Shown piece by piece: positions 36,401 to 42,400 of a stretch of 64,000 nt of DNA. Both the position numbers and the translations under genes were made by a program. The notes beneath the pieces were generated by a model. That model was not told where the DNA came from. It saw only the letters and a list, made by a program, of their open reading frames with translations, and made no database searches. The DNA comes from Tubulanus polymorphus (taxonomy: Eukaryota; Nemertea; Palaeonemertea; Tubulaniformes; Tubulanidae), in contig NC_134031.1 in assembly GCF_964204645.1 (NCBI RefSeq), positions 5,005,001 to 5,069,000 on the forward strand, read 5' to 3'. Position 1 is the stretch's first letter, and every line of letters begins with the position of its first letter.

Positions 36401-39400
36401 ATGATTAACAATTTTGATTTTTTGCAATGCATTTTTATATCATTTTATTTTTTACGTACATTATTACGTATCATATAGAGATAAAAGCATCCTTTTTTTC
36501 TATTACCTGAGCAAAGTTCAAAAAGAACAACTGATCGTTGGTGAGATGTTCCAAGCCGGGTAATCGCGACTCCTCTATTCCGTTCCTGGCTGTTTTCACC
36601 CAATCCCGATAAGCCTAAACATGTATATAGCATGATTATAAATACGGCAAAAAATCATTCCACTACTCTTTTTGGCAGAAATGTTTTTTTTTCTCATCGA
36701 GATTCCAATATCATTTTCTGGTCATCGAGTTTTATTCATTGTTTTGAATATTTTATTGATAACTCATTGAGGCCAGTTTAGCAGAAGGAGCCGGGAATTC
36801 GCCTACCTGGTAAGCCTGTTTTAAGCCGCCATTATCGGCGATATTTTCTCCCTGTGTTTGAATACCATTAAGCTGCAAAAGATGTCATTTGATCAGAATT
36901 TCTAGATTTTTTAGATATTAAAATGTATCGCAATCAAAATCGTCGACCTATAAGTGACTGCGGACTATTTGAAAAGTTCGTTGAGGTTAATACATTTAAG
37001 ACGTTTTCAAGGGCTAGGACCTCAAACTCTGTATTCGCATGTAATGCAAAGCCCGGGGAAATTAGGCGAAAATAATAAAATAGATATAATATCTGAATTG
37101 TATATTCTGGGTCGCACTTACATTCATATTAATAGACGGAACCGTGTAATTACTGTACTGGTCTATGATACACTGGGCTCTCGTCTTGAAGTTCCCGATT
37201 GCACTTTCGGTCCACCACTGTTGCAGGTTTCCGTTCTTGTCGAATTGACGACCTGTCGACAACAAAAATATGGTACATATGAACAATAAGGTACGGGTAC
37301 ATAGCCGATTAAATTGAAGGTTCTAGTATGATACGAATGAAATCCATTGTAGTAAAAACGATGTGCACGTTTTCTAATTACATCATCCTGACCCATGAGC
37401 TTGCAATCATTCAGAAATAAACAAAGCGGCGCCCAGGCAGCTAAAGCTAGGGCATATTTTCCTATCAAAGAAATTAGTCCTAAACCAGTGAGTTTGGTAC
37501 ATCTAGAGCCGACGTAGAACTATTTTGATCAGACTCATTTCGCAAATTAGATGTGTTACTTTTTTGGTGGAAACAACTCGCGTTCTGGGGATATACGACA
37601 TTACAGTTTTAACCAGAGGATTAAGCCACTATTAGTCTATTCCGCAAAATGAAGTTAAAACTGTTCTGTAAAACTGGCACCCGTTTCACAGGACAAGTTT
37701 AGGTTTCATTACATTAACTCATACATTATATAATATATAGTATAATATATAATGTATGAGTTAACTTTAGTTAGTTTGAGTTTAACGCAGAAAGCAAAAG
37801 TGGAAACTGGTATTCTAAAACCCAGAGCATTCTTGGATTTATCCTACATCCCCAGACTACGTAAGAATTGTGCATTCTGATTACAAGCAGACGTTATAAA
37901 TCATTATAGACGATTGCTTCTTTTTCTACTATAGGTTTATGCAAGCTATTTAGCGGCACTACCGTGGAGACGGGACGAGGCCGAAAAATGAAACATACTA
38001 GAAAATGTTCACGTCTGAATAAGGAAATTGTTGCGATACGCAATAAGTTGAAGAAAAAAAGGATGTGAAGAAATGCACCTGGTAGAATTGCATAGTGATA
38101 CATCTGAATTGTTAAAATCGAATGAGTGATAGAATATGATTAACATGTTATTAATTCGTGGAATGAGGGCCGTTCTGTGGTGATAACATGTTTCGTGACG
38201 AACGACAGCTATAGAAGAATATGGGTGGTAAAGCGTTGAAAATGATAGCATAAAGTATCTAACAGAATAGCTGACTAGCGAAAGCAGCGTTATTGATAAG
38301 GGGGTTCTTTATACGTAGAGATCGAAGTAAGAAATGGTTTCTCTAGTCACATCAGGCATAATGCCGAAAGCAATACGGCAACGGCGAGTCGTGTGAGACG
38401 AATGAACCGCCATTATTTTACGGGGTACATGAAAGGCAAACATTTCATCTATGGAATAAGTATATCTACGTGAATAAGAGCGATCGCCCAACGCGAACGA
38501 GGCACGTGGATAGACGACATGATAGCGCGCACGCGCGTTAGGAACACGGCGGTTCGAGCGGGACAGAAAAAAAACATGCACAGAAAATAGAAGGGCTACC
38601 TCGGTCATCAAACCCATGGGTAATCTCGTGCCCAATCACCACACCAATACCACCGAAACTAAGAGACCTACACAATAATAGTAGAAAGATAAATGCGTTT
38701 AAAATAACGTCCGGTATAAACATGCTATTTCTTTGGCAAATAATGAAATCAAATCAAACGGACATAATGTGAGGGAGTGTCGTTTACAAGTTCGATCACA
38801 GCTGTGCGTTGGGGAGTTTCGCATTCGAATTTCAACACAAAGTTCTGGGCCTAGATTCGCTGGCGTAGTTGTACACGTGTTGCACCGGTTAAAACCTCTT
38901 TTTTAACGAAAAATTCACGGGTGAAGTTTAACAAATCTTTGGCCGCGATTCACCAGAATTATTTCCGATATATATGTTTGAATGTCGCAGACCGTTTTGG
39001 TCGCTTTGTAAACTAGGGGTCCAGGGACACCATGCCCACTTCCAAATGCTCAACAATCTAACAATTTCAATATTCAACGCCCCCTGGTGACCATATACAG
39101 AATCCAATGACCTTGAAACTCACCACAATCATAGAACATGTCAGCAGCTACAATTTTGTAATTGATTGTGATAACAAAATATGCCTCGTTACCACTTTAA
39201 TATGGAAATACTAAGTTATTCTACTATTCAACGCCCCCTGGTGACCATATTCAAAACCCAATGACCTTGAAACTCACCATAATCATAGAACATGTCACGA
39301 CCTATAACTTTGTAATTGATCATGGTAACAAAATATGCCTAGGTACCAATATAATAAGGAAATACTAAGTTATTCTACGATTCAACGCCCCCTGGTGACC

Positions 39401-42400
39401 ATATAAAATAACTAATGGCCTTAAAACTTGCCACAATCATAGATGATGTCATGAGCTACAACTTTGCAATTGATTGTGGTTACAAAATATGCATTGATAC
39501 GAAAATAATATAGAAATACTAAGATATTGCATTATTCAACGCCCCCTGGTGGCCATATACAAAAACCAATGACCTTGAAACTCACCACAATCATAGAACA
39601 CGTTATGAGCTACCACTTTTTAAATGATTGTGGTAACAAAATACGCTTAGGTATCAATATTATGTGGAAAAACTTTTTCCCACTTACGAATGAGTACTGC
39701 TGACACCAAGATGGCCGCAAATTGCGTCATAATTGGCTGATGAAAAATACCTGTCTCAGGTATAAAACATCCCTTTCCAAAGAATACCCATCACAAATTG
39801 CAATGAGAAATGATAAACCAGTAGGAAGCTACAGGACTCAGAATTTGGGCCAAAATTAACATTTTTGGGCACTAAAAAGGTCATAGGACGGCCATCTTGA
39901 GTCCGATCGACCCAATTTTTGTAATGCTGATGGGCCCTGGGGGAATTCACATATATCCGAAAGATCAAGGTAATTGATCAAAGCGTCTTCAAAATTTCCC
40001 TCAAAAAGTTCAAAAATGTGTAAAAAGTGCTGATTTTGGCGAACAACAATGGCTGCCAGTCAGCCATCTTGAATCTGACAGGGCCAGTTTTTGGGCTGAA
40101 GATGTGTCTAGGGTAGATACATGTGTAACCCAAATATCAAGACATAACCTTGAAGCGTCTTCAAAACTTCCCAAAATAACTGGATTCCGTCTACGGACGG
40201 ACGAACGGACGGACGGACGACGGACGAAAAGTGAACGCAATAGCCCGCTGGGACTAAAGTCCCAAGTGGGCTAAAAATACGCAAGTGACCTGCAGTGAAG
40301 TGACCCAAATGTGCATGATGGTAAAACACATTCTATTCCAATTGATACTTAATTAAAAAGCCGAAACTTTCTCTCGAAAGCAAATGTCTTCGCTCCGATA
40401 AGAATTCAGGGTGCAGCCTCACGAAAAAAGATTAACTCTTAAATCGTATTAAGATAAACAACTGAATCATTGAAGAAATAAAATCGGTTTATGAGGTTTT
40501 TAAACCTTTTTTGAAACGTGGTCCTGCCAACTAATTGGTCTTAGCCATTACAAGAATTTGAATCTCGTGAAAAAAAATATACGTGAAAGGAAAGAAAGTG
40601 ATATTTTCATCAAAGTTTAACATATCCACGGTATTGACGCATCGAAGCCCCGAAAATGACCAAGTTGCTATCATCGCTTAAGGAGCTCCCGAAAGTGACA
40701 CGACTCAGTTCTAGAGCCGTTATTTTCGGCCACATTTCTGCTGATGACTTAAAATATAGTAATGAAATAAAGAATATATACATTAATTTTTGCGATTTTG
40801 AAGAACTAACTGTACAATCATCATAGATGATATGATATAGGCCGTGAAACGTCGTTCGCGCACTGTTCACTAACGATCTGAAAATCTACTCGATGATTGG
40901 TTCGATCAGCGACGCCGGACCCGACAAGCGAGGGGTTATCGTTAAGCGAAGATCGAAAGATGTTCGTACGTATATTTACGGTGCGAAATTAGTTTAAATA
41001 AATGTTGTATACTGATGATAAAATCTCCACCCACCTTCATCGTCAAACCCGTGAGTGATTTCGTGACCTATAACCATCCCAATACCGCCATAGTTCATGG
41101 ACCTATACAAAGAGAATGCGGAGAACGTTGCAGATTTCGCAACTAATTATTATCATTATTATTATTGTTGTTGTTATTATTAGAATTATTATGATTATTA
41201 TTATTATCATCATAATTATTAGAAAGAAAGGTGATTTGAGTGCATGGAAATAATTTTTCTGCTGAGATTTGTTGTAAAATTGACTGCGGAGGGTTTCAGG
41301 GAATTATCACCTCATAGTGGATCACTTCACGTGCAGGTCTTCGTACTTCTAGACAAGGTTAAAATCGTTTCGCAAACATGTTCACTCTAACTGTTTTTTA
41401 CTCATTCTTGCACAAAACCAATGGGGGAAAATACGCGACAAAATAATCCCAATCGAAACCCTGATTCTGCACTTTCTTTTGTCGAGGCGGGCGTCAGGTA
41501 ATTACTATATCATGTACATCGATTATAGTTAAGAGACCGGAATGGTATGAAAAGTGTATGTCTTCAAGCCCTGACTGTCTCGCCGAATCTATATTATTCC
41601 AATCTTCACTTCCTACATGAATCATTTCTAGATATCGCTGTTTGGATGGGACGTCGTTACCCTATTTCAATCTATATTCATATTTGGTCAAAAATTCTTA
41701 ATTCGACTGAATATGGGTTTGTACGGTCTGGACTTTAAGTTAAAATGAAAAAGTGCTATAAATTAGGCATTGATGGTTTTTACGAGAATAACACTCGATA
41801 GAAAAAAAAACATTCTTTGTCATGTTTGCTTCATTAATGGCATACATTTACACAGGCTATAGGTAACCGAGGTGTCTGAGGTTGAATAGTTTCAATACTT
41901 ACTTTGGATATGTTTGACTATAAAATGGTGGCTGCAAAATTCCAGCGGGAAACACTGCAAAATAGATAAAATAATGCACCACTTACTAATGAATACATTA
42001 CGAAGTATCAGAATAACAGCAATGGGACAGCGTCCACTTACAAATACTGAAATTCTCAAAAATATGAAATTATTTTATCTGTAGATGAATATCGACATAT
42101 TTTTGCTTACATAATATCCCACTTTTTTAATTGAGAAAAAAGGAATCTTTTTTATTCTTGTAAAAAGAATATTGCATGATATCATGTAGTATTAAGAAAA
42201 ATCTAATAAAAGTTACCGGATACCGAACAAAGTTGCTTTGCGTCAACAGATATTTTCTTGCTTAAAGAGCAAGACTTTCAACCTTTCAAACGTCAAAAAC
42301 ATCCGTTTGACTTTTCATCAAACAAGTCTGACCTGTTTTTATTAATCAACACCGCTATTTCGACGCTTTGGAAAAAAGTTGTCAAAAAGATGTAAACACG

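Follow-up and report, generated by a model that had tools for sequence, protein, structure and literature searches.

The window analyzed here is a stretch of 64,000 nt (C7:5005001-5069000 within a 267.8-Mb assembly), and positions are counted from its first base unless the contig is named. Its minus strand carries a gene that, as judged from its sequence, encodes a neprilysin-like M13 peptidase of Tubulanus polymorphus. We built the gene model from splice sites and the reading frame, which gave 22 coding exons per transcript, from 53172 to 33420, and a product of 756 amino acids. This product matches two RefSeq entries from Tubulanus polymorphus, "neprilysin-like isoform X2" (P0001) and "X4" (P0002), and its best solved relatives are both neprilysin (NEP) structures (4xbh, 661 bits; 1dmt, 653 bits). 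The Pfam families PF05649 and PF01431 matched P0001 with 393.5 and 256.3 bits, respectively. The parts of the gene that are used below are as follows.

63850..63929, minus strand, alternative first exon of isoform X2 (MGDYKQ...), with its end set by hand from the sequence
42500..53172, minus strand, fifteen shared exons preceding the shared exon 41903-41954; 51325-42500 match P0001, and the first (53172-53093) is from the model only
41903..41954, minus strand, shared exon adjoining the A/B cluster upstream (gene model)
41035..41102, minus strand, exon A, zinc site, 68 nt, 22 residues, used by database isoforms X2 and X4
38600..38667, minus strand, exon B, alternative zinc-site exon, 68 nt, 22 residues, AG/GT ends, phase as A
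37122..37252, minus strand, shared exon adjoining the A/B cluster downstream (gene model)
36807..36872, minus strand, shared exon with GENIAD (gene model), the glutamate of which is presumably the third zinc ligand, NEP Glu646
36507..36614, minus strand, shared exon adjoining the C/D cluster upstream (gene model)
35274..35350, minus strand, exon C, 77 nt, 25 residues (R), used by database isoforms X2 and X4
34312..34388, minus strand, exon D, alternative to C, 77 nt, 25 residues (R), GT-AG, phase as C
33420..33519, minus strand, last exon with the stop codon (gene model)

The database isoforms differ at their 5′ ends. Isoform X2 begins at a separate first exon, at 63929, and isoform X4 begins at C7:5074118, beyond the window; the first exon of our model (53172-53093) is absent from the database proteins examined. 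Isoform X4 also does without exons 46511-46332 and 46017-45931, which together make 267 nt, so that the frame is kept. A dispersed short repeat, recognized by eye, has two copies in introns of the M13 gene, at about 45550-45636 and 49635-49720. Pieces of a gene that we take to be of the RhoBTB type lie on the plus strand at about 26470-31860, heading toward the 3′ end of the M13 gene.

Exons A and B encode the zinc site. A preliminary description of this DNA had reported two 68-nt exons of equal phase at 41102-41035 and 38667-38600, and we confirmed both, each with AG before it and GT after it. The two exons have 17 of 22 residues in common, and HExxH and FDD are intact in both. The differences, in NEP numbering, are Met/Leu at 572, Asn/Ser at 573, Tyr/Phe at 574, Met/Val at 579, and Glu/Arg at 592, the last being the change after FDD that had been pointed out before. 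This numbering comes from alignment to solved neprilysin with an assumed offset, and with it Glu584, His587, His711, and Arg717 land as they are named in the accessible part of PMC11997989. Met579 is given as an S1′ residue of neprilysin in the accessible parts of PMC6060874 and PMC11997989. The contrast drawn earlier between a neprilysin-like and an ECE-like exon holds insofar as the differences are present, but it is mild: among 211 segments from relatives, 137 have Val at 579 and 43 have Phe at 574. Ser at 573 in B is unusual: Asn stands there in 335 of 339 HExxHxFD segments, taken from 332 database proteins with the gene's own two included. The exon had also been said to hold all catalytic residues, which proved incorrect, with the GENIAD glutamate lying in 36872-36807 and the equivalents of His711 and Arg717 in exons C and D.

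The reading frame is open with A alone or B alone. Inclusion of A and B together shifts the frame, as had been predicted, and leads to early stops, as does the omission of both; the double and empty A/B forms would therefore be useless. An AG at the position of the A acceptor is also present in other M13 loci of the genome (e.g., L011, L012, L014, L017, L018, and L020), so the exon boundary seems to be ancestral, and B would be a copy of the entire exon. When the DNA sequences were compared with the HExxH exons of the 12 other M13 loci, A was the closer of the two at 10 loci and B at one, with one tie; B is thus the more diverged copy. The intron between A and B contains a tandem repeat with a 154-nt unit (39072-39674).

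A second pair, exons C and D, encodes the VWC...HSPG..R segment that corresponds to neprilysin residues 692 to 717. The two exons have 13 of 25 residues in common, and Trp693, His711, and Arg717 are kept in both. The differences include NEP positions 697 (Leu/Ala), 696, 699, 705, 707, and 715 (Glu/Arg). Pro699, Arg707, and Arg715, which are common in relatives, are kept by D where C is rare, and D is rare at 704, 705, and 716. As far as the accessible parts of the two papers go, Met579, Trp693, Tyr697, and His711 are S1′/S2′ contacts (PMC11997989 and PMC6060874), Tyr697 being a possible contact near P2′ in the former and listed as a contact in the latter. All four A/B by C/D combinations are open and full length, at 756 amino acids, and HExxH, the downstream GENIAD glutamate, NAFY, and the C-terminal CxxW, motifs whose roles we take to be M13 hallmarks, are present in every one. 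PF01431 is matched over its full length by the C-terminal part of the B+D protein, with 248.7 bits versus 259.5 bits with A+C. By a hand count from the translations, B+D has six more positive charges than A+C.

In the accessible part of Pillmann et al. (2011; PMC3228551), exons are recognized as a mutually exclusive cluster when they are neighboring and internal, are similar in length, share the reading frame, and have conserved splice sites and homology. Exons A and B (68 and 68 nt) and exons C and D (77 and 77 nt) are neighboring internal exons with GT-AG splice sites and equal phase, and the members of each pair are homologous. We therefore read the locus as one M13 gene with two independent mutually exclusive exon clusters, A or B and then C or D, and give this reading a probability of about 80%. 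Mutual exclusivity had already been proposed for A and B; equal length and phase, the loss of frame, and long selection on both copies support it well, but no transcript shows it.

Comparison of the copies bears on how long both have been maintained. Between A and B, the proportion of differences was 1.0 at synonymous sites (pS) and 0.13 at nonsynonymous sites (pN), with 15 of the 21 differences at third positions, and the 60 nt of intron on each side of the two exons had no clear similarity (25 to 37%). For C and D, pS was 0.60 and pN was 0.34. We put the observed number of random changes on one copy in neutral simulations, and 17 or more residues were kept without a stop in 0 of 20,000 runs for A/B; for C/D, a weaker test than A/B, 13 or more residues were kept in 0.17 to 0.20% of runs. 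We also scored the exons with profiles of relatives, built from 123 distinct HExxH and 206 distinct VWC segments with the gene's own two proteins excluded. Among the relatives, A stood at percentile 90, B at 41, C at 45, and D at 33, and of the 20,000 decay simulations run per setting, none reached B and at most 1 reached D. Thus, over most of their history, the copies of both pairs were under selection at the protein level. With scores within the relatives' range, B and D are not old decaying copies; very recent silencing of B or D would still fit these results.

The 23 donors and 23 acceptors were ranked by a leave-one-out score for which the 19 constitutive introns of the gene served as the reference. 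Among donors, C ranked 1, D 19, A 22, and B 23, the weakest; among acceptors, B ranked 3, A 11, D 19, and C 22. Thus, every alternative exon except possibly A has one poor splice site. Regulated exons often have a poor splice site, but the weak donor of B may instead mean that B is used rarely. U12-type splicing and steric exclusion were rejected as the basis of exon choice, as all four exons are GT-AG and the intervening introns measure 2,367 nt (A-B) and 885 nt (C-D).

X2 (P0001) and X4 (P0002), the database isoforms examined, both contain A and C; no B- or D-containing transcript was seen. The protein database merges isoforms that are more than 90% identical, and the P0001 cluster has four members, one of which is listed. 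Searches with B/D-type C termini returned Tubulanus entries of the A/C type or no protein named Tubulanus (best match, 67% identical), and no separate B/D protein cluster named Tubulanus was among the best 120 of 7,977 and of 4,225 matches, many of which are unnamed. These results, together with the weak B donor, the altered residue at a nearly invariant Asn in B, and the greater divergence of B, are what would be expected if B and D were relics of old duplications, long used and now silent or nearly so, with A and C alone making the enzyme. We consider this unlikely. It would need two independent pairs to have both been silenced recently, whereas open frames, splice sites, and HExxH are intact despite synonymous saturation and the profile scores of B and D are within the range of relatives.

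The early stops produced by A+B also allow for B or D acting as a regulatory exon, the inclusion of which beside its partner would break the frame and lower the amount of enzyme. HExxH and HSPG would be needless in such an exon, yet the amino acids are kept with synonymous sites saturated, and we regard this role as highly improbable.

The origin of B and D was addressed by searches of the window and the genome. Each profile was applied to the six-frame translation of the window, at about 127,900 positions (127,870 for HExxH). The HExxH profile scored A at 77.8 bits and B at 72.6 bits, with the next-best segment at -4.7, and the VWC profile gave two strong matches, at 61.5 and 56.8 bits, with the next at 3.2 bits, so that chance similarity could be ruled out. 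When the A+C product was searched against the window at the protein level, B, D, and each exon itself were found, the remainder being weak matches with E values of 1.4 or more; no second copy of any other exon was found in this search at E values up to 10. A per-exon nucleotide search for second copies was uninformative, as B and D themselves were missed. The earlier statement that there is one set of flanking exons and no second gene therefore stands for the exons that can be tested, but it had overlooked the duplicated pair C/D.

Genome-wide, 25 M13 matches resolved, with the best candidates scored, into the window and at least 12 other loci. In 9.9-kb stretches, each of the 12 other loci had a single HExxH segment, scoring 17 to 78 bits with no further segment above 1.0 bits, and paired HExxH or VWC segments were absent from all of them. 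A VWC segment above 20 bits was present at 5 of the 12; at the rest, this segment has diverged too far, is missing, or lies beyond the 9.9-kb stretch. Genome searches with the B- and D-containing stretches returned the gene's own exons and single exons elsewhere, and derivation of B or D from another M13 gene was rejected. Two M13 gene copies, L009 (C7:679000-688900) and L010 (C7:5143000-5152900), lie in opposite orientation about 4.47 Mb apart and are 98.4% identical over 6,168 aligned bases; either the segment was duplicated recently or the assembly contains it twice. Four loci including this gene form a loose M13 cluster within about 0.42 Mb (C7 5.04, 5.15, 5.18, and 5.46 Mb). The one point in favor of assigning B and D to another gene, or to a tandem copy that has broken down, is that further M13 loci lie within 0.5 Mb on the same contig. 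We reject this origin as scarcely credible: the two pairs are set among single shared exons with which they form one frame, and no other exon was duplicated in the protein search of the window.

For the reading with two mutually exclusive clusters, we consider the anatomy, the frame logic, the long protein-level selection on the pairs, and their absence from the other M13 loci found to be established; B and D would be spliced in, the choice would be regulated, and peptide cleavage would be altered. Splicing would take one of A/B and one of C/D and could yield up to four full-length membrane peptidases with identical zinc ligands. The choice between A and B would set NEP 579 in the S1′ pocket to Met or Val and would also vary the surroundings of the zinc helix (Asn/Ser at 573, Tyr/Phe at 574, and Glu/Arg at 592), and that between C and D would vary the S2′ rim at NEP 696 to 716 (e.g., Leu/Ala at 697 and Glu/Arg at 715).

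How A or B might be chosen is suggested by a candidate RNA helix with the following arms.

41306..41386, minus strand, upstream arm of the candidate RNA helix (lead only)
40236..40325, minus strand, downstream arm of the candidate RNA helix (lead only)

Pairing of 41386-41306 with 40325-40236 would loop out exon A. The predicted energy of -65.2 kcal/mol was stronger than that of 60 of 60 dinucleotide shuffles (best, -58.7), and 2 of 27 like-sized stretches of the window were as strong, so we treat the helix as a lead only. There was no signal of RNA pairing for C/D, where 21 of 27 shuffles were as strong. It is possible, at somewhat less than even odds, that the gene holds a combinatorial code in which two exon switches produce four neuropeptidases differing in substrate preference and surface charge, the exon A pre-mRNA helix perhaps aiding the A/B choice.

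Enzymes of the neprilysin type terminate neuropeptide action, and their diversity is generally attributed to gene duplication. In this gene, alternative splicing could change specificity at two positions within a single active site. If this is true, nature supplies a 2 by 2 experiment on what determines S1′ and S2′ preference in the M13 family, and splicing would control residues in the active site of a protease.

To our knowledge, human NEP has no such exon pairs. Neprilysin (NEP, MME; 4xbh and 1dmt) has the same zinc and substrate-binding motifs as the Tubulanus gene, in which two active-site segments come in two versions each. We found no report of paired active-site exons in M13 peptidases in the open-licence PMC papers searched: PMC5740500 has no mention of neprilysin, peptidase, MME, or ECE1, PMC3923563 has none of peptidase or active site, and the accessible part of PMC8791509 mentions neprilysin and mutually exclusive exons separately. 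The common house spider has an ECE-like venom locus, M13-type like the Tubulanus gene, with 22 transcripts; in the accessible part of that report, mutually exclusive exon events are counted for the venom genes as a group, and paired active-site exons are not described (PMC6700725). The clusters in the accessible part of Pillmann et al. (PMC3228551) share with A/B and C/D the features of length, frame, splice sites, and homology, whereas here two clusters, known from the gene sequence, lie in one peptidase gene and both encode active-site segments. Mutually exclusive exons and M13 peptidases are each well known; what appears to be new is the presence of two clusters in one enzyme, both at the active site.
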